Shown here: positions 10,211 through 45,102 of the stretch, piece after piece
How positions within the stretch are numbered: position 1 is the stretch's first letter
Layout: each line of letters begins with the position of its first letter
Source: a virus
DNA length: 45,290 bases
Reading direction: 5' to 3' (one strand)
IMG/VR virus record: IMGVR_UViG_3300042882_001578
Location: 1 to 45,290 of that record
Notes under the pieces: generated by a model
What the model saw: only the letters and a program-made list of their open reading frames with translations
Told to the model about the DNA's origin: nothing
The model's database searches: none
Made by a program: the position numbers and the translations under genes

Positions 10211-11576
10211 ACCGGCCAGGCAGACTATTCGACCTCAACCTGGTCCACAGGAGCAATTCTTAGCTAGTGAAGCTGATATCGTTTTCTATGGTGGTTCAGC
10301 CGGTGGAGGTAAATCTTTCGGCCTCCTCATGGAGCCGCTTCGCCATGTAACCACGAATTCTGAATTCTATACAGTAATCTTCCGCCGGAACACCACTCAG
10401 ATCCGCAATCCGGGCGGCTTATGGGATGAGGCCATGAAGCTTTACCCTTGGGCGAACGGTAGGCCGGTCAATCATGTCTTGGAATGGCGTTGGAACAAAG
10501 GTGGAAAGATCCGTATGGCCCACCTGGAACATGAGAACTCTGTTTTAGACTGGCAGGGTGCCCAGATCCCACTTATCATGTTTGATGAGTTGACCCATTT
10601 CACAGAAAAGCAATTCTTTTATATGCTTTCCAGAAACCGATCAATGTGTGGAGTCCGCCCTTACATCCGAGGCACTACTAATCCAGATGCGGATAGTTGG
10701 GTGGCCCGTTTCATAGCTTGGTGGATTGATGAAGATGGTTCCCCGATTGAAGAACGCTCCGGTAAGATTAGATGGTTCATTCGATTAAGTGATACTATAA
10801 TTTGGGCGGACTCAGCAGAAGAATTGATAAAAGAATACGGTACGGATGTCAGGCCAAAGAGTTTTACCTTTATTCGCGCTCGTCTGGAAGATAATCCGGC
10901 CCTTCTAAAAGCCGACCCTGGCTACCGTGCCAATTTAATGGCCCTCTCTCGTGTCGAGCGTGAAAGGCTCCTGGGCGGTAACTGGAAGGTACGGCCATCC
11001 GCTGGAATGTATTTCAAAAGGCATGAGATCACCTTAGTTGATTCAATCCCTGATGACATAATAAAATTAGTCCGTTACTGGGACTTGGCCGCCACAGAAC
11101 CTGGTGAAGATAACCCTGATCCGGATTGGACAGCCGGTGTTTTGATGGGGCTTCGAAAAAATGGTAGATACATAGTCCTGGATGTTATACACTGCCGTAA
11201 GAAATCTGGTTCTGTTCGGGAACTGGTTCTTCGTACCGCAAGCAATGATACCCGTCAAGTTAAGATCGGATTACCGCAAGATCCTGGTCAGGCTGGTAAG
11301 GATCAAGCCGAGAGTTATGTCAGCCTCTTAGCCGGATTCCCTGTCGAGGTCGTTAGGGAGACGGGGGATAAAGTAACCCGCGCAGATCCATTTGCCGCTC
11401 AATGGCAAAACAATAATGTGGATATCCTGAGAGGTTCTTGGAATGAAGGGTATTTTGATGAACTAGAAGCTTTTCCTTCAAAAGCTCATGATGACCGTGT
11501 TGATGGTTCATCAGGGGCTTTTAGAATGTTGACAGGTAATTCTATAGCCGTTTGGTCTAAATTGGGGAAAAAATGA
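10179..11576 (+). CDS. terL: terminase large subunit
   Basis: 465 aa. Walker A at residues 38-46 (GGSAGGGKS) and Walker B near 131-137 (LIMFDEL) form the packaging ATPase. The C-terminal nuclease has RYWDLAAT near 300, LPQDPGQAGKDQ near 370 and HDDRVDG near 440, the acidic residues of a Terminase_6-type RNase H fold. It cuts and pumps phage DNA into the prohead through the portal. The ATG at 10179 lies inside terS with no clear ribosome site, so translation is probably coupled. Length is usual for the family. Confidence 0.92.
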   Translation: MQKKLSKKTSKPARQTIRPQPGPQEQFLASEADIVFYGGSAGGGKSFGLLMEPLRHVTTNSEFYTVIFRRNTTQIRNPGGLWDEAMKLYPWANGRPVNHVLEWRWNKGGKIRMAHLEHENSVLDWQGAQIPLIMFDELTHFTEKQFFYMLSRNRSMCGVRPYIRGTTNPDADSWVARFIAWWIDEDGSPIEERSGKIRWFIRLSDTIIWADSAEELIKEYGTDVRPKSFTFIRARLEDNPALLKADPGYRANLMALSRVERERLLGGNWKVRPSAGMYFKRHEITLVDSIPDDIIKLVRYWDLAATEPGEDNPDPDWTAGVLMGLRKNGRYIVLDVIHCRKKSGSVRELVLRTASNDTRQVKIGLPQDPGQAGKDQAESYVSLLAGFPVEVVRETGDKVTRADPFAAQWQNNNVDILRGSWNEGYFDELEAFPSKAHDDRVDGSSGAFRMLTGNSIAVWSKLGKK

Positions 11577-13399
11577 ATATCGAGCAACAAATCAAGAATG
11601 CAAAAGAGGCTGAGGCTGAGGCTAAAGAAACTTCAAAAACCGTAGATAGTTTTGTAAATTTTGCACACAACCTCGGGATTGGGGCCGATAACCCAATGAC
11701 CACTTCATCCTATGGATTCAACCCGGTCACCCGCAATAAAGTACTACTTGAATGGATTCACCGTGGTTCTTGGATCGGTGGTATCGCCGTGGATACTGTG
11801 GCTGATGATATGACCCGGGCCGGCGTCTCTATCCGTGGTGAATTGAGTCCAGATTACATTGCAGCTATTGAGGAAGAAGCTACCGTCTTGGACATCTGGA
11901 GTCAATTGAATGAGGCTATTAAGTGGGGCCGACTCTATGGTGGTAGCCTAGCTGTTATGTTAATCGATGGCCAGGATACTGAATCCCCGCTTCGATTAAA
12001 CACCATTCGTAAAGATCAGTTTTGTGGTTTCCTACCACTGGATCGGTGGATGGTGGAACCTAGTTTTAATGATCTTGTTACAGATTTCGGCCCTAACTTA
12101 GGAAAACCTAAGTATTATCGCGTAACTTCAAACGCTCCAGCATTGATAGGTCAACGAATTCACTTTAGCCGGTGTATCCGGTTTGAAGGAGTTACCCTCC
12201 CCTATAGCCAACGATTAATGGAAAATTTCTGGGGCTTATCAGTTCTTGAACGGTTGTATGATCGAATGATTGCTTTTGATTCGGCAACCACTGGGGCGGC
12301 TCAGTTGGTCTTCAAATCTTACCTCCGTACTTACAAAATCAAAGATCTTAGAGAAGTGGTAGCGGCTGGTGGAGAGGCTTTGGCCGGTCTAACCGCTTAT
12401 GTTGAAATGATGCGTCGATTCCAAGGGGTTGAAGGCATTACCTTGCTAGATGCAGATGATGAGTTTACCGCAGATAGCCACGGGGCTTTCGGTGGGTTAT
12501 CTGACGCTTTAATACAATTCAGTCAGCAGTTATCTGGAGCCCTGCAAATACCGTTGGTGCGGTTATTCGGTCAAAGTCCATCTGGTTTCAGTACCGGGGA
12601 GGCAGATTTACGTAACTACTATGATACTATTAAACAACAGCAGGTTCGGACACTCCAAGTCCCAATGACCAAAGCTTACCGGGCGATTGCGGCTTCTCTT
12701 GGTATCAAGGTACCAGAAGGGTTCCAGCTCCAGTTCAACAACTTATGGCAAGATACAGATTCCGAAAAAGGAGAGGTAGCTGGAAAGACTTTTGATGTGG
12801 TTAGTCGTGCAGAGGAATCTGGTTTGGTAGACAAAGCCTGTGCCTTAAGGGAGTTGCGCCAATCTTCGAAAATCACCGGTATCTTTACAAACATTACAGA
12901 CGAAATGATTGAAGAGGCGGAGAATGAACCACCTCCTCTACCTGAAACCGTACCCGGTGAAGAACCTCAAAAGGAGGAAGTTGTCCCAGAGGTTTTGAAT
13001 ACTCCAAAAACCACGGATACTAAGTTACGGGCCGCGGCTTTAGTTCCTTTCTCAAAGAATCGGCGAGTGCTTCTACTCCTCCGTGCTGAAGGGGCAGATT
13101 ATCCGGAGTACTGGGCCGGCCCTGGAGGCAAGATAGAAGGGAATGAAACACCTATTGGAACCGCTATCCGAGAAACCTCGGAAGAAACTGGTTTTGCCAT
13201 TGCCCCTAATATGATTGATACTCAAAAAGGTTTTGTTTACGATGGGGTACTGGTTCTACCAACAAAACCATTAGATTTTGAATTTGTACCAAGATTAAAC
13301 GATGAATCAGAAGCCGGTATGTGGTTCGATTTGACTGACCTACCCTCCCCTCTGCATCCTGTATGCTATGAAGCTTTGTGTACCTGGGGATGGGTATAA
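11573..13399 (+). CDS. portal protein (DUF1073-like) fused to a C-terminal Nudix hydrolase
   Basis: 608 aa. Residues 1-440 are a portal of the DUF1073 type (ATVLDIWSQLNEAIKWGRLY, WGLSVLERLYDRM, QIPLVRLFGQSPSGFSTGEA, then a DLRNYYDTI helix). A proline/glutamate linker follows (PPPLPETVPGEEPQKEEVVP). Residues 483-608 are a complete Nudix domain with a perfect box: G-x5-E-x7-R-E-T-S-E-E-T-G-F within a GGKIEGNETPIGTAIRETSE stretch. At the junction is K-T-T-D-T (479-483), matching the putative prohead-protease motif. ATGA overlap with terL. The portal is expected at one head vertex; the Nudix enzyme hydrolyses nucleoside-diphosphate-linked substrates, here unknown. Confidence 0.88.
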   Translation: MNIEQQIKNAKEAEAEAKETSKTVDSFVNFAHNLGIGADNPMTTSSYGFNPVTRNKVLLEWIHRGSWIGGIAVDTVADDMTRAGVSIRGELSPDYIAAIEEEATVLDIWSQLNEAIKWGRLYGGSLAVMLIDGQDTESPLRLNTIRKDQFCGFLPLDRWMVEPSFNDLVTDFGPNLGKPKYYRVTSNAPALIGQRIHFSRCIRFEGVTLPYSQRLMENFWGLSVLERLYDRMIAFDSATTGAAQLVFKSYLRTYKIKDLREVVAAGGEALAGLTAYVEMMRRFQGVEGITLLDADDEFTADSHGAFGGLSDALIQFSQQLSGALQIPLVRLFGQSPSGFSTGEADLRNYYDTIKQQQVRTLQVPMTKAYRAIAASLGIKVPEGFQLQFNNLWQDTDSEKGEVAGKTFDVVSRAEESGLVDKACALRELRQSSKITGIFTNITDEMIEEAENEPPPLPETVPGEEPQKEEVVPEVLNTPKTTDTKLRAAALVPFSKNRRVLLLLRAEGADYPEYWAGPGGKIEGNETPIGTAIRETSEETGFAIAPNMIDTQKGFVYDGVLVLPTKPLDFEFVPRLNDESEAGMWFDLTDLPSPLHPVCYEALCTWGWV

Positions 13400-21561: not shown

Positions 21562-22941
21562 ATGGCTACAAGTACTTTTTATACCATAGAGCAGATTGGA
21601 CCAAAACAGAGTTTTACTCCTGAGGGTTTTTTGCTTTGTGAAGATGTACCTGTGGCCAGGACCGGAATGATGATTTACGGCCCAAATGAAACTCCAGTTG
21701 AAGCAGGTCCAGATGGCCTTGTAAAGATTCACCGTGAAGATGCCGATGTTTTCAGACCGGAGACTATTGCCAGCGCTCAAGGTAAATCAGTTACTAATGA
21801 CCATCCCGATGACGATGTCACACCAAACCTATGGAAAGAACTTAGCCATGGAATAATGCTTAACGTCCGCAGAGGTGTTGGCGCTTTTGATGATTTGCTT
21901 TTAGCTGATCTTTTGATTACAACAGAGGATGGTATAAAAGCAGTTCAAGAAGGCAAACGGGAGGTTAGCTTAGGTTATGAGGCAGACTATGTCCAATTAG
22001 CCCCAGGTATAGGCAAACAAACAAACATTATCATTAACCATGTAGCCTTAGTAGAACAAGGTAGATGTGGCCCACGTTGTGCAATTAAAGACGAGAAACC
22101 TGAAATTTCAAAAACAGAGGTAATTATGAAAACCAGAAAGACAAGAAGCATCCATGACAAACTAGCTTCCCTGCTGCGTCGTTCGTTTAAAGCGAAAGAT
22201 GAGGCGGAATTGGAAGATGTTATCCAAGACGCTGCAGAACTAGAAATTGGGGCAGTTTCTGGTGATGAAGAATTTGAACCACCGGTTGAGAAAGAGGATG
22301 AGGATATCCACATTCATGTTGATGGTCAGGATGATGGTGAAGATTTCCGTACCAACGATGACGAGTTATGGGAACAGAATGCTGCAGAGCATGCCGCTCT
22401 TTGGGAAGCTATCCATGAGTTAAGAGCTCAACTGGGTGGTGGAGTCGAAGATTCCGATCCAGACCTGGATATAAATGAGCAATCCTCAGAGCAGGCTATG
22501 TTGGATGAAGTTCCTGAAGGTTTGGAAGAAGAAGCTGCCAAAGCCCAAGATTCTCGTTACTTAGGTGAATCCTACCGAGACACCGTAGCTCTTGCCGAGA
22601 TCCTGGTTCCAGGTATTCAGCAACCGACTTTCGATAGTGCCACAAAACCAATGCAAACCTTTAAAAAGATTTGTGGTTTCCGTCGCAAAGCTTTGGACCT
22701 GGCTTACAAGGACAGTACCTCTAAACCCATCCTGGACGATTTGTTGCTTGGTAAACCGATGAACACTAAAAACATGACCTGCGACGCTGTTCGCACTTTG
22801 TTTAATTCAGCCGCTGCTACAAAACGCCGGATGAATAATAGTTCCGGTACCCGGGATTCTATTCAATTACCAAAATCACCTAAACCTTTGACTTTGGCTG
22901 AACTGAATGCTCGCAACCGCGAAAAATACGCTGTAAAATAA
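21562..22941 (+). CDS. prohead protease (DUF2213-like) fused to scaffold
   Basis: 459 aa. Residues 1-175 are the protease: RTGMMIYGPNETPVE, ITNDHPDDDV-type segment (TNDHPDDDVT, catalytic His), then GKREVSLGYEADY (Ser) and NHVALVEQGRCGPRC. Residues 189-459 are a highly charged, helical scaffold region. Inside it lie D-I-H-I-H-V (248-253), K-A-K-D-E (210-214) and K-A-Q-D-S (327-331). The protease should cleave scaffold and capsid proteins during maturation. It sits just before decoration and capsid genes. The fusion and an internal start (22126) parallel phages where protease and scaffold share one gene. Confidence 0.82.
   Translation: MATSTFYTIEQIGPKQSFTPEGFLLCEDVPVARTGMMIYGPNETPVEAGPDGLVKIHREDADVFRPETIASAQGKSVTNDHPDDDVTPNLWKELSHGIMLNVRRGVGAFDDLLLADLLITTEDGIKAVQEGKREVSLGYEADYVQLAPGIGKQTNIIINHVALVEQGRCGPRCAIKDEKPEISKTEVIMKTRKTRSIHDKLASLLRRSFKAKDEAELEDVIQDAAELEIGAVSGDEEFEPPVEKEDEDIHIHVDGQDDGEDFRTNDDELWEQNAAEHAALWEAIHELRAQLGGGVEDSDPDLDINEQSSEQAMLDEVPEGLEEEAAKAQDSRYLGESYRDTVALAEILVPGIQQPTFDSATKPMQTFKKICGFRRKALDLAYKDSTSKPILDDLLLGKPMNTKNMTCDAVRTLFNSAAATKRRMNNSSGTRDSIQLPKSPKPLTLAELNARNREKYAVK
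22126..22941 (+). CDS. probable scaffold protein from internal in-frame start
   Basis: Met189 of the protease-scaffold gene is preceded by AGAGG with five bases of spacing, and this is exactly where protease homology ends and charged helical sequence begins (MKTRKTRSIHDKLASLLRRS). It would give a 271-aa free scaffold, like lambda Nu3 inside gene C. The nested start is inferred. Confidence 0.4.
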   Translation: MKTRKTRSIHDKLASLLRRSFKAKDEAELEDVIQDAAELEIGAVSGDEEFEPPVEKEDEDIHIHVDGQDDGEDFRTNDDELWEQNAAEHAALWEAIHELRAQLGGGVEDSDPDLDINEQSSEQAMLDEVPEGLEEEAAKAQDSRYLGESYRDTVALAEILVPGIQQPTFDSATKPMQTFKKICGFRRKALDLAYKDSTSKPILDDLLLGKPMNTKNMTCDAVRTLFNSAAATKRRMNNSSGTRDSIQLPKSPKPLTLAELNARNREKYAVK

Positions 22942-22964: not shown

Positions 22965-23498
22965 ATGAAGAAAATGAGAATGAAAACCCGTGATGCGGCT
23001 TTCGGTTTCCGTATGGGAGCTGGTTTCGCGGGCGATGTAAACCGTACCCATCCGTCTAGCATTGAGCCTGCTTTAAACGATACCGGAACTCCTGTTGGAG
23101 CATTTGGCCACGCCGTTCTGGTCGACCAAACAGACCAAACTGTTCGTCCTTTTGCAGCTGGTGACACTGCTATAACTGTGGCCTACGGTGTTTCCGTTAG
23201 ACCCTATCCCTTTCAACAATCTTCTGCCAGTAACTTCGGTGAAGCTACTTTCGGAGATGCTGTTCCACCTGCTGGTGCCATCGATATCCTACGTTCGGGC
23301 TACATCATGGCAAAAGTGACTGGTACACCTAAAAAAGGTAACCCAGTCTATGTCTGGTGTGCGGCTTCTTCTGGGGCTCACGTACAAGGTCAGTTTGAAG
23401 CTTCCGCGACCGGTGGCTCCACAGCAGCTTTGGCAAACGCTACTTTCAACGGCTCACCTGATTCCTCTGGTGTAGTCGAAGTTGCTTTTAACATTTAA
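22965..23498 (+). CDS. head decoration / capsid-associated protein
   Basis: 177 aa. Lies between the protease-scaffold gene and the major capsid gene, the normal place for a decoration protein. The first 11 residues are basic (MKKMRMKTRDA) and contain K-T-R-D-A, the putative cleavage motif; the body is small-residue-rich beta sequence (PAGAIDILRSGYIMAKVTGT). Structural relatives in DUF2184 phages occupy the same slot. ACGGAG precedes the start. Confidence 0.68.
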   Translation: MKKMRMKTRDAAFGFRMGAGFAGDVNRTHPSSIEPALNDTGTPVGAFGHAVLVDQTDQTVRPFAAGDTAITVAYGVSVRPYPFQQSSASNFGEATFGDAVPPAGAIDILRSGYIMAKVTGTPKKGNPVYVWCAASSGAHVQGQFEASATGGSTAALANATFNGSPDSSGVVEVAFNI

Positions 23499-23510: not shown

Positions 23511-24656
23511 ATGAGCAAACTAGGTAAACATATCGCCCTTGCATTAGCACCGGCTATTATCACTCGCAGTAAGACCAGAGACATTATGACCTTCGATGAC
23601 TCTGGCTACCGTACTATTGACCGCTCTGGTACTCAAATGGGTCGTCCGTTAGGTAACTCTTTTCAAACACATGATGGACGCACTGTTGACTCAACCGGGG
23701 CTTTCTTGGTTGGTGAGCTGGAGCGCCTGGACTTAACCTTACATGAGCCATTGGCTTCTGTAACTTGGGGTCGAGATATTGACTTACGAGAAGACGTAAC
23801 CATAGCGGATGAAGTTTCATCCTTTACCTTAAGCACCTTCGCCGCTTCTGGTGGTTTAGGAACCGGTAATGGTATCCGTAACGGTAAAGCTTGGATCGGT
23901 AAAGATACCAATCAGATCTCTGGTATTGCTGCGGATATCGCTAAAATTCCACATCAATTGCGTCCTTGGGCTATGGAGTTGAAATACTCTATCTTGGAAT
24001 TGGAATCAGCTGCCAAGCTGGGCCGTCCAATTGACAACCAAAAATACGAAGGCTTGGCTCTGAAACATCAGATGGATATTGATGAGCAGGTTTACGTTGG
24101 TGATTCGACTACTGGTGACACCGGTTTGTTGAACAACTCCTTGGTAACCAATGTTCAAAACCTTCCGAACGGTGTAGCTGGTTCAACCAATTGGTCCGAT
24201 AAAACTCCGGATGAGATCCTGGCCGATGTTAACTTAATGTTGACTTCAGTCTGGTCCGCTTCAGCTTGGGCCGTTATGCCTACCCGGTTGCTATTGCCGC
24301 CTGCTCAATTTGGTTACATTAGCACTCAAAAGGTTTCCGCCGCTGGTAACGTTTCAATCTTGAAGTATATCCAAGAAAACAATTTGTTGACTACTTCTGG
24401 CCGCGGTTCGTTGGAAATCTTACCTGTAAAATGGTTAATTGGTGCAGGTGTTGGTGGTACTTTAGGTACTACCGGTACTGTGGACAGGGCAGTCGTCTAC
24501 ACGAAAGAGAAAAACCGTGTTCGTTTTCCAATGACCCTATTGCAACGTACTCCCGTTCAATATGATAGTATCTACCACAAAACCACATACTTTTGCCGCC
24601 TTGGTGCGGTTGAAGCGGTGTATCCGGAAACTATCGGTTACTTTGACGGAATCTAA
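23511..24656 (+). CDS. major capsid protein (DUF2184-like, HK97 fold)
   Basis: 381 aa. Recognisable by YRTIDRSGTQMGRPLGNSFQ, VTWGRDIDLREDV, PWAMELKYSILELESAAKLG and the QVYVGDSTTGDTGLLN loop, all typical of DUF2184 capsid proteins. The N-terminal 24 residues are basic and hydrophobic and end K-T-R-D-I, so residues 1-24 may be trimmed by the prohead protease. It forms the icosahedral shell. GGGG lies eight bases before the ATG. Confidence 0.88.
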   Translation: MSKLGKHIALALAPAIITRSKTRDIMTFDDSGYRTIDRSGTQMGRPLGNSFQTHDGRTVDSTGAFLVGELERLDLTLHEPLASVTWGRDIDLREDVTIADEVSSFTLSTFAASGGLGTGNGIRNGKAWIGKDTNQISGIAADIAKIPHQLRPWAMELKYSILELESAAKLGRPIDNQKYEGLALKHQMDIDEQVYVGDSTTGDTGLLNNSLVTNVQNLPNGVAGSTNWSDKTPDEILADVNLMLTSVWSASAWAVMPTRLLLPPAQFGYISTQKVSAAGNVSILKYIQENNLLTTSGRGSLEILPVKWLIGAGVGGTLGTTGTVDRAVVYTKEKNRVRFPMTLLQRTPVQYDSIYHKTTYFCRLGAVEAVYPETIGYFDGI

Positions 24657-25094: not shown

Positions 25095-25256
25095 ATGGAA
25101 GGCCAAGTCGATAAACCAGTTGGCCTTCCAATAAAGGATCTTGCTCAGGTGGAAGAGAATGATGTTTCTTTTTTACCTGTAGCAGAATCCCTATCTCTTC
25201 AACAGCTGAACGATAATAACAGAAAGTATTGGGAACAAGGGGAAAACCATGACTAA
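25095..25256 (+). CDS. small hypothetical protein with start codon inside a hairpin
   Basis: 53 aa, not found by length cut-offs. The C-terminal LSLQQLNDNNRKYWEQGEN resembles a short motif (..A.NRKYW...) seen in other phage proteins. It overlaps the first HIH-tag gene by eight bases. Its ATG lies at the edge of an 11-bp perfect hairpin (25096-25130) that should hide the start. Confidence 0.5.
   Translation: MEGQVDKPVGLPIKDLAQVEENDVSFLPVAESLSLQQLNDNNRKYWEQGENHD
25096..25130 (+). promoter_or_regulatory. 11-bp perfect hairpin over a start codon
   Basis: TGGAAGGCCAA and TTGGCCTTCCA pair perfectly around a 13-nt loop. The 5' arm begins at the second base of the ATG at 25095. No T tract follows, so it is more likely a translation-control or RNA-processing hairpin than a terminator. 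Confidence 0.55.
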
Positions 25257-25467
25257 ACATATTCACGTCCACATTGGCAAAAAGAAAACCACTGATGCTG
25301 ATTATTCCTATAATGTTGGTCAAGCTACGTTGGCCCTGGATAAAGCCCACTATGAACTTTTATCTGCTCAAAGAAGCGATGATATTGACCAAGATGGTGA
25401 TTCCAGAATCGAGGATGCTTTGAAACTTATCCGGAAGGCAAAAGATATTGTACTCAGGATAAAGTAA
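25249..25467 (+). CDS. HIH-tag small protein 1 (putative internal head protein)
   Basis: 72 aa. Begins MTKHIHVHIGKKKTTDA: alternating His residues on a short strand, a lysine run, then K-T-T-D-A. The remaining 56 residues form a two-helix hairpin (YNVGQATLALDKAHYELLSA and EDALKLIRKAKDIVLRIK). The same start occurs in four other genes of this window whose bodies differ. It lies between capsid-associated and connector genes. I infer a capsid-targeting tag removed by cleavage after Asp16; function of the mature part is unknown. Confidence 0.65.
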   Translation: MTKHIHVHIGKKKTTDADYSYNVGQATLALDKAHYELLSAQRSDDIDQDGDSRIEDALKLIRKAKDIVLRIK

Positions 25468-25930: not shown

Positions 25931-26488
25931 GTGAACCTCAAGAACGCCTTGCAGATGACCTTGGATCTACTGCCGGATGTGAAGATCAGGCTTTCGTCCT
26001 TGGTTGATGCGGAAGTTCTTGTTGGTGTTCCAGAAGATAATACCCAACGTCAGGATAATGGTCCGACCAATTCAATGCTGGCCTATATTCATGACAACGG
26101 TTCCCCGATTAGGAATATTCCAGCCAGGCCTTTTATGAGGCCTGGAATAGCTTCTGCTAAAAGTGATGTTATTCGGGCTCTTAAGTGGGGAGCGGATGAA
26201 GTTTTGGATGGTAATGAAAACGCCGGCCGTTTGGCTTTACATAAAGCCGGATTAATAGCTCAAGCTAAAATACGCGCAGCTATTAATGAAGGAATCCCAC
26301 CTCCACTAGCCGACTCTACCTTGAAAGGTAGGATAAGAGCGCGAAGAGGGGTAAAAGGTGCCACCGCGGAATTAGCTGCTAGAAAAGCCGGGGAAATGCC
26401 TTCCCTTGGGTTGGCTAAGCCTTTAATTAATACCGGGCAGCTTCGCAACTCAATTAACTACATTGTAAGGAAAAAGAAAAATGGCTAG
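25931..26488 (+). CDS. tail-completion / virion morphogenesis protein (HK97 gp10-like region)
   Basis: 185 aa from GTG 25931, one base after the previous stop (TGAGGTG). The reading frame is open back to 25859, but that part only shadows the connector gene. Features: VGVPEDNTQRQDN, SMLAYIHDNGSP, IPARPFMRPGI and a basic C-terminus with LINTGQLRNSINYIVRKKKN, the pattern of gp10/Mu G-type neck proteins where PARPF.RPG and TG.L..SI recur. Ends eight bases inside the next HIH-tag gene. Confidence 0.72.
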   Translation: MNLKNALQMTLDLLPDVKIRLSSLVDAEVLVGVPEDNTQRQDNGPTNSMLAYIHDNGSPIRNIPARPFMRPGIASAKSDVIRALKWGADEVLDGNENAGRLALHKAGLIAQAKIRAAINEGIPPPLADSTLKGRIRARRGVKGATAELAARKAGEMPSLGLAKPLINTGQLRNSINYIVRKKKNG

Positions 26489-26516
26489 ACATATTCATAT
26501 TCATATAGGAATGAAA
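26447..26516 (+). repeat. duplicated block, copy A (gene end plus HIH tag)
   Basis: From AACTCAATTAACTACATT through the HIH-tag codons this block is closely similar to 26963-27032, including an identical GTAAGGAAAAAGAAAAATGG stretch. In copy A it is the 3' end of the tail-completion gene and the start of HIH protein 2. Confidence 0.7.
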
Positions 26517-26918
26517 ACTACCTCCAGAGTTCGAGATTCGGAAGATCCTCGAGTCCTCGAAGGATTGGCTAACCATGCTATTGAAAAATTACGATCAGGT
26601 AACACCGGGTTTCCATTTGAAAATGTCGCTAACCAAGCCATTAAGTCTTATCAAACAGCCTCAGAACTATATACAAACCAAAATGATCCACAAGGGCAAC
26701 GGAGATGCAACCTTAAGGTCCAAGCTATTAAAAAAGCTCTTTCAGAATATGAAAGATTAGTGGGTGATGTTAAGAGGCTTTCGGCTTTATCGATGGAAAT
26801 ATACAAAAAAGAATCTTCTGGGGCTGAGGTTCCAAGAGCCGAAAAATTACGAGTCTCTAGGGAGTACAAGGCAGCGGAAGCTTCCCTACGGAAACCGTTT
26901 CAAAATATCAGTATCTAA
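26481..26918 (+). CDS. HIH-tag small protein 2 (putative internal head protein)
   Basis: 145 aa. Begins MARHIHIHIGMKTTSRVRDS; the tag is kept but the K-x-x-D-A site is altered to a longer K-T-T-S-R-V-R-D-S. The body is entirely helical and charged (NQAIKSYQTASELYTNQNDP, AIKKALSEYERLVGDVKRLS), like a TPR/coiled-coil repeat. It overlaps the tail-completion gene by eight bases; the ribosome site (GTAAGGAAAAAG) is inside that gene. Function unknown. Confidence 0.62.
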   Translation: MARHIHIHIGMKTTSRVRDSEDPRVLEGLANHAIEKLRSGNTGFPFENVANQAIKSYQTASELYTNQNDPQGQRRCNLKVQAIKKALSEYERLVGDVKRLSALSMEIYKKESSGAEVPRAEKLRVSREYKAAEASLRKPFQNISI

Positions 26919-26962: not shown

Positions 26963-27032
26963 AACTCAATCGACTATGGTGTAAGGAAAAAGAAAAATGG
27001 CTAAACATATCCACATTCACGTAGGAAAAAGA
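26963..27032 (+). repeat. duplicated block, copy B (fossil gene end plus HIH tag)
   Basis: AACTCAATCGACTATGGTGTAAGG followed by the shared GAAAAAGAAAAATGG leader. The noncoding part still reads V-R-K-K-K-N-G-stop, the exact C-terminus of the tail-completion protein, so it is a leftover of that gene carried along with the tag. Confidence 0.7.
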
Positions 27033-27275
27033 AAAACCACTGATGCTTTCAATCCTCAATCTATGATAGCCCTTTGTAGATCCGCAATCAAGAATGCAGC
27101 AGCTTTCCAAGAAGCTGCAGGCAATAGACCTGGTGCGGCTAAAGTTTACGCGGAGGCTATTTCCGCTTATGAGAAAGGGATGTCGGCTGCAAGAAAAGGG
27201 AATGAGGATGAAAGCAAATCTTATTATACCAAAGGTAACAACCTCACTAGGCAAGCACATACCATAGCAGCTTAA
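26997..27275 (+). CDS. HIH-tag small protein 3 (putative internal head protein)
   Basis: 92 aa. MAKHIHIHVGKRKTTDA is followed by a 76-residue helical body (CRSAIKNAAAFQEAAGNRPG, AAKVYAEAISAYEKGMSAAR), a TPR-like hairpin loosely similar to protein 1. Both flanks are fossil sequence: the upstream leader is the 3' end of the tail-completion gene, and 27331-27349 repeats the 3' end of HIH gene 1. It looks like an inserted, recombined cassette. Confidence 0.63.
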   Translation: MAKHIHIHVGKRKTTDAFNPQSMIALCRSAIKNAAAFQEAAGNRPGAAKVYAEAISAYEKGMSAARKGNEDESKSYYTKGNNLTRQAHTIAA

Positions 27276-27790: not shown

Positions 27791-28116
27791 AACTTAATGT
27801 CTTAGATGCTTCTGGGGTACCTCAGCAATTACTGGTCGAAGGATTAGAGGCGATTACTGATAAATCAGGTTCCATTACCGCAACCGGTGTCTCCCAAGTC
27901 GCTATTGCGGCTAATAGTGCCCGGTCTGGATTTCTGATCCAGAATAGAAGTCTGAATCCGATGCATATTAATGACCTCGGAGCAGCTACTGTCGGGGCTA
28001 GTTCTTTTACTTTGGCCCCTGGCGAATGCTTTCCACCAGCCGGCTACCCAATAACTGCCAATGCGATCAATATCCTTGGTACTGTTTCAGATATATTTTC
28101 CGCGAGGGAGTGGTAA
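27787..28116 (+). CDS. small beta-rich virion protein
   Basis: 109 aa. SQVAIAANSARSGFLIQNRS, then PMHINDLGAATVGASSFTLA, GYPITANAINILGT: a jelly-roll-like fold common in small phage structural proteins. Coupled by ATGA at its start and TAATG at its end to HIH gene 4. Exact role unknown. Confidence 0.55.
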   Translation: MKLNVLDASGVPQQLLVEGLEAITDKSGSITATGVSQVAIAANSARSGFLIQNRSLNPMHINDLGAATVGASSFTLAPGECFPPAGYPITANAINILGTVSDIFSAREW

Positions 28117-28538
28117 TGGCAATTCATATTCATATTGGAAAAAAGAAGGCTAAAGATGCTGTTAAGTACGTCAGTAATATCGATATCCGCCTTCCGAATG
28201 GTAAAGTGGTCCCGAACGGGACTGTTTTCTATAAAATTGGGCCAAACCTTTATCGGCCTTATTTTGCCAGACCGGGAGAGTCAGATGTCCGCATCTCTCC
28301 AGATAGATTCGTTATTGAGGATAGTAAAGCTAAAGATGCTACTCCATCCGCTTTTTTGAAAAAGCACCCAATGTGGAGTGAATCCGATTACTCCTATTTT
28401 AAAAACAAAGGGTATACGGACAAGGAGATTTTAGCTCTTTGGGATCGAGATCAAAAAAGTGGTGGAGGCCCGGTTAATCATAAACCTATTCCAAATGTGC
28501 TCGGCAGGATAAACGGTAAAATTGTAACTAATGCCTAA
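28116..28538 (+). CDS. HIH-tag small protein 4, possible two-part precursor
   Basis: 140 aa from ATG 28116 (TAATG overlap); an upstream in-frame start at 28026 only shadows the previous gene. MAIHIHIGKKKAKDA is the tag with K-A-K-D-A. Residues 16-70 are a beta-rich domain (NGTVFYKIGPNLYRPYFARP). Then a second K-A-K-D-A occurs, followed by a helical domain (SESDYSYFKNKGYTDKEILA) known as a short module in other phage proteins. If the motif is a cleavage site, one precursor would give two mature peptides. Confidence 0.63.
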   Translation: MAIHIHIGKKKAKDAVKYVSNIDIRLPNGKVVPNGTVFYKIGPNLYRPYFARPGESDVRISPDRFVIEDSKAKDATPSAFLKKHPMWSESDYSYFKNKGYTDKEILALWDRDQKSGGGPVNHKPIPNVLGRINGKIVTNA

Positions 28539-30632: not shown

Positions 30633-31076
30633 ATGACCACTTACTCATTTTTAGAGGTCAATGCGGCGCTTGTTGGTCCAGGTGGAGCAATCAACTTGGG
30701 GCAAGGGGCAGCTGCCTCGGAAGAAGGTATAAGCATTGATCCAACTAGTCCAATCAACACCATGACTATTGCCGCGGATGGTACTCCAATGCAATCCCTT
30801 GGTGCCGATAAATCCGGGGTTGTCACCGTTACCTTGTTGAAAACCTCTCCTACTAATGCAAAGCTGTCAGCTATGTATGCTTTGCAAACAGCCTCTCCGG
30901 CTAGCCATGGACAGAACACCTTAACGGTGGCTTTGACTCATCTCGGTGACGTAATTACTTGTCAGCAAGTAGCTTTTCAAAAAGCCCCAAGTTTGAAGTA
31001 TGCGAAAGAAGGTGGTACTAATGACTGGGTTTTTGACGCCGGTATCATTGATCGTACGCTTGGTGGATTGATCTAA
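30633..31076 (+). CDS. tail tube protein (DUF3277-like)
   Basis: 147 aa. TYSFLEVNAALVGPGGAINL, SEEGISIDPTSPINTMTIAA, GTPMQSLGADKSGVVTVTLL, then NDWVFDAGIIDRTLGGLI: a standard DUF3277 tube subunit, following the sheath gene as usual. AAGGAG nine bases before the ATG. Its last base is the first of HIH gene 5's ATG. Confidence 0.9.
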   Translation: MTTYSFLEVNAALVGPGGAINLGQGAAASEEGISIDPTSPINTMTIAADGTPMQSLGADKSGVVTVTLLKTSPTNAKLSAMYALQTASPASHGQNTLTVALTHLGDVITCQQVAFQKAPSLKYAKEGGTNDWVFDAGIIDRTLGGLI

Positions 31077-31300
31077 TGGCTATCCATATCCATGTTGGAA
31101 AGAAAACGGTTGATGCTGATCCAATAAGTACCCGGAACCTTGATCCTGAGCAGGTTAAAAAAGAAAGGCGGGATGATAAAAGAATCCTTAGCAATATCTC
31201 ACAAAATCTAAAACAATTGAGCTATTGGTCGAAACAAAAGGCTTCTCGTATTGAAACCGAAATCGATAAATTACTTGACCAGATAGATGACCGCCAATGA
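31076..31300 (+). CDS. HIH-tag small protein 5 (putative internal head protein)
   Basis: 74 aa. MAIHIHVGKKTVDA is the tag with K-T-V-D-A. The rest is one long charged helix pair (NLDPEQVKKERRDDKRILSN, LKQLSYWSKQKASRIETEID). It is wedged with 1- and 4-base overlaps between tube and chaperone genes, a place where an extra gene is unusual. Function unknown; grouped with the other four by its N-terminus only. Confidence 0.62.
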   Translation: MAIHIHVGKKTVDADPISTRNLDPEQVKKERRDDKRILSNISQNLKQLSYWSKQKASRIETEIDKLLDQIDDRQ

Positions 31301-42360: not shown

Positions 42361-45102
42361 TTATTCAACTAGCTCTTCAACATGGCCCCAATCTGGCCCA
42401 ATATCGCAATCCGCAATAATTGGAATCTTCAATGGGATGGCGGTTTCCAACACCCTTTTCATTTCCCTGAAAGCTTCATCCTTTCCACCCGGATCGCTAA
42501 AATCCAATTCATCATGAACCGTTAAGCGTGGGGTACCGGTCTCTGCGAAGATCCCATCTTTCCAGCATATCCACATAGCCTTTTTCATTAAGTCAGCAGC
42601 GGAACCTTGTAGGCGCCGGTTTAAGGCTTTATGTGTTTGTGCTCGGCGAATGTTCCCATACTTAAGAATGGCTTGATCATAAGGCAGTGGAATGGTATCC
42701 CGACCCCAATTGTCCGGTTCCCATAAGTCAAACCTAGATTTGCGCCCAAGAATCGTACGAATAACTCCTGTGGTCAAAGCCTCCTGTATGGCCTCCTCCA
42801 TAGTGGCCTTGGCGAAAGGTGCTCCTTCATGGTAGGCCGCAAACAGTTTTTTACCCTCAGATGCCTTCAATCCGAGGCCAGCTGATAAGGCATCCACACC
42901 CATCCCATAGATCAAACCGAAGTTGATGTTTTTAACAGCCTTTCGACTTAGTTCTTGACCAGTTTGCCTAGTAACTAATTCCTGGGTCATCACATGGTAA
43001 TCTGTATGCGGGTCACGATTAAAGATGTCCCGGACTTCTTGGCTCATTTTACCTACTGCGAAATGGGCCAGGAACCTGTACTCTACTTGACTATTATGGG
43101 AGCATAACCCCTCTGCAATGAATGTTTTGTGATCCGTTTCAACGGCTATGACCTCCTGTTCCCCGAGGTACTCAATAGCGAGCACCTCATCCGCCGGTCC
43201 CCAATTCTGGACATTCACTCCTTCGATCAATTTTTCTGGAACTTTTGCCAAGAGCCTGAGTGGGCGCACCTGTCCTAAAAAGCGCCAAATTGCATCACGG
43301 CCACCTGTTAAACGCAAGAGCCACACTCCTCCTTTATTCAAATGCTCCTCGTAGGCGAAATCGTATTTATCGAGAAGACGTTTAACTTCCGCATAGCACA
43401 AACCTTCTTTCTGTCCGACACCGACAATACCTGAACTTATCCAACCTTCTCCATCGAAGAATCCGGAGAGCCACCCAAGGTCATAATTTTCTGTAAGGTT
43501 CTCCCAAGGCTCTACCGCGCGCAGGATGCTTGCTCCAACCTTCAATGTCTCGGTAAACATCCAACGCGCCGGCGCATTCTTGTTCTGGCCAGGCCGGCCA
43601 AGCCACCGGTGTTTATCCGAACAGATGATTGAACCTTTGTTTGTCATAATTCGATAACATGGCCGGGTAAGCTTTTTCAATGCTGTAACTATTGAATTTC
43701 GAAGGTAACGCCTGCCTTTATCCGCTTGAGCCCCGGAATATTTTTTGTCTTCATCGAAAGCAACTATTGGCATACCAACCTCTAGGCTACAGGCTGGAAT
43801 CCAACGTAGATCAGGGGTCAGTACCCTAGTTTCTGGGGCGACACAATAATCATATTTGCGCCAGCACATGTGTTCATAATCAGGGGTAAAAATTCCTCGT
43901 ACCATAGGGGCTAATTCATCGTCTCTAGATGGCAAATTCTGAAGGTTAGGGGTAGAACTGCTGAACCGGCCGGATCGGGTTCCGCCTTCATCTCCGCGAA
44001 GCAGATGGAATTGGCCATATACCTTACCATTGACATGGGAATCGAGAACATAGGACTCCACAAAGGTTCCACGAAGTTTTGCTAGTTTTCGGATTTCGTT
44101 GATACTTGCAGAGATTGGATGATTGACTTCTTTGAGGAATCCTTTTGTGAAACTCGGGTTCCCTTTATCCGTCCGCGGGTAAGGAAGGCCGGCTTCATCA
44201 AAAGCCTTGGCTAAACTGGCTGAAGCATTAATTTCCACGTGGAAACCAACAAGTTTATCCAGTTTTTGCTGCTCCTGGTCTTCTTTGGCTTTTAGTTTGT
44301 CCCGCAGTTTTTCAGCGGCATCCACATCCACGGACACCCCTTCAAAGCGCATGTCGATAGTCAAATAGATAAGGTCACATTCCATGCGGAATAAATCGTA
44401 GAGGCCTTCCCGCCAGATCAACGGATATAATACTTCAGCTAACCGTAGAGGGAGATCGGCATCACTTTCAGCATATGGGCCAACTAGCCTGGCCGGTGCC
44501 CGATAAATGTTTGCCCTTTGTTTCCCAGTAATAGCCCCACCGTAATAATCGGAACACCACCGGTAAAGAAGAGAAGACTCTTTCCCCTCACCTAGATATT
44601 TTGTGGCCAGTGTTTCTAAAGCCACTTGAGCCCGTTCATCCAGTAGAGCTTCAGCGAATTGAACATCAAACAATTCACCTCGAACAATGACACCCTCTTG
44701 GCGGAGCCACCCGATATCGTAGGTTAGGTTAGCCCCGATTTTAGGTTGTTTTGGATTACCTAAAGTATCCCGGAGCCAGGCTAATACCGGTTCAACTGGC
44801 CAATTATACTCCGGTTCCACTTCGTGGCGAAGCGGGTAATACCACCGCCCACCTCCAGGTACCCCAATAGAAACTCCAACTAAATGACCTTTGCCACGAG
44901 CCCATCCTGGCCCATTGTCCTCCAGTTCCGGGTCATAGGTTTCCACATCAATGGCAATAGCCTTTGCTGAAGATAGATCTGGTAAATAAGTAGGTGGTAA
45001 CCATCCGGTATCTGGGATCGAAGGCATGACCCGGACGGTTTTGTTCCGACCAGTCGCTTGAACATCTTCCCAAAATAAACCTACAGCATCGACTCTAGCC
45101 AT
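42361..45102 (-). CDS. polA: family A DNA polymerase with 3'-5' exonuclease, interrupted by an intein
   Basis: 913 aa precursor; 662 aa after splicing. Exonuclease: AIAIDVETYD (Asp-x-Glu near residue 51) and GANLTYDIGW. Polymerase: GGTRSGRFSSSTPNLQNLPS, motif A DYSQVEYR split between Tyr419 and Ser671, motif B (RKAVKNINFGLIYGMG), motif C (TVHDELD near 862). The insertion of 251 residues at motif A begins with Cys420 and ends His-Asn, followed by Ser. This is the replicative polymerase; the phage needs splicing to make it active. It lies downstream of the 53-codon gene with no clear ribosome site of its own. Confidence 0.92.
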   Translation of the reverse strand: MARVDAVGLFWEDVQATGRNKTVRVMPSIPDTGWLPPTYLPDLSSAKAIAIDVETYDPELEDNGPGWARGKGHLVGVSIGVPGGGRWYYPLRHEVEPEYNWPVEPVLAWLRDTLGNPKQPKIGANLTYDIGWLRQEGVIVRGELFDVQFAEALLDERAQVALETLATKYLGEGKESSLLYRWCSDYYGGAITGKQRANIYRAPARLVGPYAESDADLPLRLAEVLYPLIWREGLYDLFRMECDLIYLTIDMRFEGVSVDVDAAEKLRDKLKAKEDQEQQKLDKLVGFHVEINASASLAKAFDEAGLPYPRTDKGNPSFTKGFLKEVNHPISASINEIRKLAKLRGTFVESYVLDSHVNGKVYGQFHLLRGDEGGTRSGRFSSSTPNLQNLPSRDDELAPMVRGIFTPDYEHMCWRKYDYCVAPETRVLTPDLRWIPACSLEVGMPIVAFDEDKKYSGAQADKGRRYLRNSIVTALKKLTRPCYRIMTNKGSIICSDKHRWLGRPGQNKNAPARWMFTETLKVGASILRAVEPWENLTENYDLGWLSGFFDGEGWISSGIVGVGQKEGLCYAEVKRLLDKYDFAYEEHLNKGGVWLLRLTGGRDAIWRFLGQVRPLRLLAKVPEKLIEGVNVQNWGPADEVLAIEYLGEQEVIAVETDHKTFIAEGLCSHNSQVEYRFLAHFAVGKMSQEVRDIFNRDPHTDYHVMTQELVTRQTGQELSRKAVKNINFGLIYGMGVDALSAGLGLKASEGKKLFAAYHEGAPFAKATMEEAIQEALTTGVIRTILGRKSRFDLWEPDNWGRDTIPLPYDQAILKYGNIRRAQTHKALNRRLQGSAADLMKKAMWICWKDGIFAETGTPRLTVHDELDFSDPGGKDEAFREMKRVLETAIPLKIPIIADCDIGPDWGHVEELVE
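43093..43845 (-). mobile_element. intein with LAGLIDADG segment in polymerase motif A
   Basis: Polymerase residues 420-670 (251 aa). Starts Cys (CVAPETRVLTPDLRWIPACS, block A), has a block-B-like segment (IICSDKHRW), one clear LAGLIDADG-type motif (LGWLSGFFDGEGW near 43441-43485), block F (DHKTFIAEGL) and ends Cys-Ser-His-Asn before Ser. The N- and C-terminal splicing residues are intact. Only one LAGLIDADG copy is obvious, so homing activity may be reduced or depend on a dimer. Confidence 0.88.

Follow-up and report, generated by a model that had tools for sequence, protein, structure and literature searches.

The locus analysed here raises the question of why a short peptide of alternating histidine and beta-branched residues should occur both inside the scaffold region of a phage head-maturation protease and at the very start of several other proteins of the same virus. 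According to the earlier note, the window, meaning the whole stretch of 45,290 nucleotides, encodes the scaffold copy as DIHIHV, its DNA resembles that of an N-terminal tag on a nearby gene, and the tag could be a copied scaffold segment that recruits cargo into the prohead. We consider it probable, at roughly 70%, that the tag is a two-part, removable capsid-targeting propeptide that mimics a docking motif of the scaffold.

The protein at 21562-22941 (+) is a DUF2213 head-maturation protease of 459 aa with a C-terminal scaffold region, as indicated by its match to PF09979 (E 2.4e-48, 164.7 bits against a Pfam cut-off of 22) and to the head-maturation protease families phrog_1961 and phrog_530. 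In its AlphaFold (AF2) model (pLDDT 84, pTM 0.47), residues 14-166 are closest to the T4 gp21 protease (5jbl_A; VIA Z 10.6, rmsd 2.8, 131 aligned), and herpesvirus assemblin proteases score up to Z 8.7; both matches come from a second structural comparison, plain Foldseek with the model having given no match at E<=0.001. The predicted fold of the DUF2213 protease domain is that of T4 gp21 or herpesvirus assemblin, and the candidate catalytic Ser-His-His residues (H81, S136 and H160) are invariant in an alignment of 70 relatives. After the protease domain the model shows helices at 197-231, a disordered acidic linker at 232-263, a long helix at 266-292 (22357-22437, +) and a helical C-terminal domain. 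The phage Pa193 protein gp24 is a distant homologue of the window scaffold (profile search, E 3e-13), and helix 266-292 corresponds roughly to its capsid-binding hairpin as described in the available part of the Pa193 paper, the profile alignment being weak at this point (PMC11042391).

The motif itself (D248 to V253, 22303-22320, +) lies in the low-confidence linker directly before this helix, and the translation places it where the earlier note had put it, with E247-D248-I249-H250-I251-H252-V253-D254 encoded at 22300-22323. Among the 70 relatives that have the motif, the rest of the linker varies, but H250 never changes and H252 is present in at least 90%; the motif forms a conserved island inside a disordered acidic linker. 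The family form, derived from anchored counts in which two histidines are fixed by construction, is (G)(D/E)-T-H-[IV]-H-[IV]-H with a Gly-rich stretch behind it; measured against THIHIHxG, the window has a shorter copy, IHIHVDG. We found the motif in 73 of 136 non-redundant scaffold tails of DUF2213 proteins, and the background was 25 occurrences in 551,726 residues of other ORFs, or 0.013 per 280 residues (counted as [IVL]H[IVL]H or H[IVL]H[IVL] beyond residue 12). At the DNA level the window contains 9 matches to the degenerate core CAYATHCAYRT versus 0.61 expected, a number reached by none of 100 shuffles; seven matches fall in five tagged genes, one in the scaffold and one at 42566. As a separate observation, a DNA polymerase I-like gene at 42361-45102 (-) has, by eye, an apparent intein (...KYDYCVAPETRVL ... 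AEGLCSHNSQVEYR).

Five genes of the window, all on the + strand, begin with M-x-(x)-HIHIH-like sequence followed by K/R-x-[KRTV]-D-[AS]. They are gene 1 (25249-25467, 72 aa; tag with K-T-T-D16/A at 25249-25299), gene 2 (26481-26918, 145 aa; R-V-R-D19/S at 26481-26540), gene 3, which was used in the earlier comparison (26997-27275, 92 aa; K-T-T-D16/A at 26997-27047), gene 4 (28116-28538, 140 aa; K-A-K-D14/A at 28116-28160) and gene 5 (31076-31300, 74 aa; K-T-V-D13/A at 31076-31117). Gene 4 starts at the ATG at 28116 within the listed ORF 28026-28538 and contains a second, internal site, K71-A-K-D74/A, at 28326-28337. None of the five proteins matched Pfam above the cut-off. Judged by sequence, this is an N-terminal peptide common to otherwise unrelated proteins of one phage. 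A direct repeat of 76 nt (26447-26522 and 26963-27038, 80%) covers, in both gene 2 and gene 3, the tag together with the ribosome site and the region upstream, and the bodies of the two genes may be paralogues; because this repeat joins the two genes, the tag may have spread between cargo genes by DNA duplication.

In the propeptide reading, the first part of the tag, an alternating His/beta-branched strand (HIHIHxG), would be a peptide mimic of the docking motif, which the scaffold would show in its disordered linker beside a helix that probably binds the capsid wall, and it would bring the tagged proteins into the prohead scaffold core. The second part, K-x-[KRT]-D/[A/S], would be recognised by the DUF2213 prohead protease, and this enzyme would also cut the capsid, portal, cement and scaffold proteins. 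During maturation the tag would be cleaved off and the scaffold removed, and the cargo, freed of its tag, would remain with the DNA in the virion and then be ejected into the host.

A variant that differs in the docking partner is a serious possibility, if a less probable one. Here the scaffold motif and the tag would not bind each other but would both bind a common groove, for instance in the capsid protein interior, the protease domain or the C-terminal scaffold domain, and the tag would compete for a site used by the scaffold itself. Such docking would fit the placement of the motif, a short linear one, in a disordered linker next to the helix that corresponds to the capsid-binding hairpin of Pa193 gp24, but no candidate groove was found. 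The letters of scaffold motif and tag also track each other poorly (Val fraction, rho 0.01; His count weakly, rho 0.36, p 0.05), a result that carries little weight either way. Homotypic pairing of HIHIH strands is about as likely as a third shared docking partner. It is attractive because the docking strand resembles the designed zinc-binding amyloid peptides IHIHIQI and IHVHLQI, in which His and beta-branched residues alternate in the same way and which bind zinc and self-assemble, as stated in the accessible part of that paper (PMC10008563); the designed peptides are 7-mers without homology to the phage motif, and the resemblance is one of pattern only. By this analogy, any protein with an HIHIH start might join the core by beta-pairing, perhaps zinc-bridged. 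The pattern match, the disordered and exposed motif and the shuffled modules described below are the basis of a broader and rather tentative proposal, in which homotypic pairing would both hold and load the core and the cargo would consist partly of small polyproteins with K-x-K-D/A sites between their modules, one protease cutting the tag, the scaffold, the capsid protein and the cargo linkers in one maturation step.

The sequence K-x-[KRT]-D-[AS] in the second half of the tag is probably a prohead-protease site, as its distribution suggests. The pattern [KR]x[KRTV]D[ASTIGE] was found in 9 of the 44 listed window genes, namely the portal (twice), the protease-scaffold, the cement protein, the capsid protein (twice) and the five tagged genes, and was absent from the other 35, tail and terminase included. 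The major capsid protein (23511-24656, +; PF09950, E 2.1e-78) has the candidate sites K-T-R-D24/I at 23571-23582 and R-T-V-D60/S at 23679-23690, and the cement protein of the E217 gp24/Pam3 gp6 type (22965-23498, +; PF22758, PF23982) has K-T-R-D10/A. In the scaffold, the candidate sites K210-A-K-D213/E (22189-22200, +; D213 in at least 90% of the 70 relatives) and K327-A-Q-D330/S (22540-22551, +; D330 invariant, S331 in at least 90%) lie upstream and downstream of the motif, so that the motif and the next helix are situated between D213 and D330-S331. The probable portal (11573-13399, +), identified from gene order and length, has K22-T-V-D/S and K479-T-T-D/T. Directly after the second of these, PKTTD/TK at 13007-13018, we noted by eye a NUDIX-like C-terminal stretch, an arrangement that looks like a way of delivering an enzyme fused to the portal and then cleaved off; in E217, too, the portal extends into a long additional part at its C-terminus.

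Over all loci, the density of [KR]x[KR]D[AST] was 2.05 per 1000 residues in tagged bodies, counted without their first 30 residues; the corresponding values were 2.39 for scaffolds, 0.52 for capsid proteins and 0.17 for the remaining ORFs. The 12 sites observed in tagged bodies compare with a mean of 1.9 and a maximum of 7 after shuffling, and the reversed motif was also somewhat raised in these bodies (0.51). Near the capsid N-terminus a [KR]TRD-like site occurs in most loci, whether the scaffold motif is present or absent, and 22 of the 56 tags kept by hand lack a clear site under the regular expression.

Published Pbunavirus structures are consistent with cleavage between Asp and Ser or Ala. 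The capsid protein is visible only from residue 66 in the published structure of E217 and, according to the part of the paper available, in Pa193, where the first 93 residues of the portal are also missing from the map and from mass spectrometry (PMC11042391). The sequence of E217 gp25 reads A-M-D64/S65-N66 at this position, the E217 portal has AMD72/S73 and its scaffold AMD/S and AQD/S/A. The E217 cut position is compared here by site and not by aligned column, because the alignment of the window and E217 capsid proteins is unreliable; a PDB search with the window capsid protein returned only 8hdt. The second half of the tag, the occurrence of the same site in four head proteins and the shuffled cargo modules go beyond what the earlier note had described.

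The nature of the tagged proteins bears on whether they would be ejected. When about 31 distinct tagged proteins were scanned for domains, sequence matches to effector or LPD domains were found outside the window. The tagged protein L166:2375 is an ADP-ribosyltransferase (PF03496, E 1.2e-24) that also matches phrog_802 (Alt-like) and phrog_595, that of Burkholderia phage BgManors32 (L191:9187; UEW68637.1) has an LPD3 domain (PF18798, E 9.5e-29) and is homologous to the tagged protein L195:4963 of phage WC36-2, and L031:14236 has a UBA_4 domain. Packaging and injection are either predicted or established for polyvalent proteins and for T4 Alt, as described in the available part of PMC5512222. 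We observed in addition that phrog_595, a head-maturation protease family, matches L166:2375-3058 in its C-terminal region 341-499, possibly reflecting a protease-effector fusion as another route for loading cargo. A signature like E-x-DHPRxxNGxFGSGG follows right after the tag in L061:2918, L195:4963, L191:9187 and others, and is found in untagged phage proteins too. The cargo at L061:3258, suspected by eye of being an ADP-ribosyltransferase, is not claimed as one (AF2 pLDDT 36).

Small modules recur in varying combinations, often split by K-x-K-D-A-like sites, as seen in L022:5428-6168, L023:8807-9793, L050, L017 and L028; the protein L022:5428, for instance, joins blocks found separately in the window gene at 28116, in L023:8807 and in genes of L050, L017 and L028. 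This shuffling, together with the sites between modules, suggests from sequence that some cargo is made as polyproteins. An untagged ORF segment of L017 (from 4992, 535 aa) has a NUDIX-like start (by eye), tagged-cargo modules and the sites KAKDA/RSKDA. It is conceivable, though we regard it as unlikely, that the tagged proteins are instead structural or core-assembly helpers that are consumed in head assembly and not ejected. Many of them are short and without known domains, and the internal candidate sites of some could destroy them at maturation; however, ADP-ribosyltransferase and LPD3 domains fit injected effectors better, and the recurrence of modules in shuffled order also speaks against helpers.

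The result that the earlier note had named as refuting, a lack of co-occurrence between scaffold motif and tagged genes in relatives, did not appear, as we found strong co-occurrence in both directions. The survey loci comprised 7 of 473 matching phage records and the best 80 of 535 and best 80 of 580 viral relatives; 139 protease clusters were reduced to 136, since two held only loci fetched by tag and one (L006) had a fragment, and the counts exclude the 7 loci that had been obtained by way of the tag (L008-L014). With a tagged ORF defined by the motif within 8 residues of the ATG, at least one was present in 36 of the 73 loci with the scaffold motif, the window being one of these, versus 5 of the 63 without (Fisher p=7.6e-8). 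This corresponds to 62 tagged ORFs in 1.17 Mb and 5 in 1.12 Mb, with 1 and 3 matches, respectively, on the opposite strand as a control. None of the five tagged ORFs in motif-negative loci appeared tag-like on inspection. A stricter automatic definition (motif plus cleavage-like site by regular expression) gave 18/73 versus 0/63 (p=4.7e-6). Curation by hand, which discards 6 of the 62 tags found with the scaffold motif and all 5 found without it, gave 31/73 versus 0/63, a difference that is partly by construction, and we therefore prefer the uncurated and the automatic strict counts. The 56 tags kept by hand are spread over 31 loci, 15 of them with more than one, and the bodies are mostly dissimilar to each other. 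Among viral contigs of at least 15 kb, tags were found in 19/36 with the motif versus 2/17 without (p=0.006), and the effect also persisted when only viral contigs or only long loci were counted. No tag was seen in 37 of the 73 motif-positive loci; many loci are fragments. In the reverse direction, searching viral contigs for starts of the form MAxHIHxH, independently of the protease, gave 34 contigs, of which 21 have DUF2213, and all 21 of those have the scaffold motif (17 distinct proteins; HMM); of the 13 without DUF2213, ten are shorter than 9 kb and three measure 17.7, 28.9 and 32.5 kb.

Shared ancestry could in principle produce such a pattern if the HIHIH starts existed for an unrelated reason, e.g. 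metal binding. The test of phylogenetically independent pairs, underpowered with only 3 supported pairs on the tree (p 1), leaves room for this, and clustering of the proteases at 50% (8 clusters) left no co-occurrence signal. However, the effect survives clustering at 70% (p=5.6e-5) and 60% (p=8e-4), the tree shows at least 16 changes of the scaffold motif, the motif accompanies DUF2213 in every tag contig that has it, and the site downstream of the tag is the same as in head proteins, which together make ancestry as the sole explanation improbable.

The proposal that the tag arose by recent copying of the scaffold DNA is hardly tenable: 16 of 18 bases are indeed identical in the same frame between the scaffold and the gene 3 tag (27006-27025), and a repeat search finds a 29-nt repeat at 76% between the scaffold and the third tag (family D6), but scaffold and tags of the same genome share 98 of 192 comparable codons (0.51), no more than those of different genomes of similar GC (846/1619, 0.52), and some window tags are nearer to the consensus THIHIHxG than is the window's own scaffold motif. 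The DNA likeness arises because the peptide is shared, the resemblance is at the peptide level, and in the absence of any synonymous-codon signal recent copying is rejected. What stands of the original idea is recruitment into the prohead, with which the co-occurrence and the shared cleavage-like site agree.

The propeptide reading has parallels in known systems. The DUF2213 protease has the same predicted fold as T4 gp21, but the cleavage position of gp21 is Glu, unlike the candidate Asp of the window; T4 is set apart here by description and not by sequence. The capsid targeting sequence of the T4 core proteins IPII and IPIII is likewise a short N-terminal peptide, and gp21 removes a small N-terminal peptide from T4 core proteins, according to the accessible part of PMC9958956; in contrast to T4, the window tag mimics the motif of the protease-scaffold itself and sits on many unrelated proteins. 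In phage P1 an N-terminal peptide of DarB directs both this antirestriction protein and a reporter to the inside of the head, and the Dar proteins are described as having no common N-terminal sequence in the available part of the paper (PMC9024508), whereas the window tag has a shared sequence and a likely template is visible. Head proteins of the SPN3US type also have N-terminal propeptides removed in the prohead, but at another site, and scaffold mimicry is not described in the part of the paper available (PMC10052503). The Pbunavirus E217/Pa193 scaffold, a distant DUF2213-like homologue, shares with the window the D/S sites in capsid, portal and scaffold, but the E217 scaffold has no HIHIH motif. 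The tag would thus work like the T4 and P1 capsid signals, though we do not file it as a member of either class, as it is known here from sequence alone.

Literature searches, with a coverage that stops short of subscription papers and preprints, found no description of this tag; by titles and the starts of abstracts, papers on HIHIH and phage mostly concern imaging tags or unrelated matters, and none on DUF2213 concerns a tag. Capsid-targeting peptides are already known, and what is new is the tag sequence, the unusual scaffold-mimicry design and the site rule; for the protease family to which this rule applies, little experimental work was found in the searches. Sequence rules for the selection of phage head proteins are known only for a few models. 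The tag would explain cargo recruitment as imitation of the scaffold, and it would provide a short signal that could be transferred to other proteins to bring them into phage heads. As it can be read from sequence, it could be used to predict lists of head cargo, and with them candidates for early host takeover and anti-defence, in DUF2213 phages.
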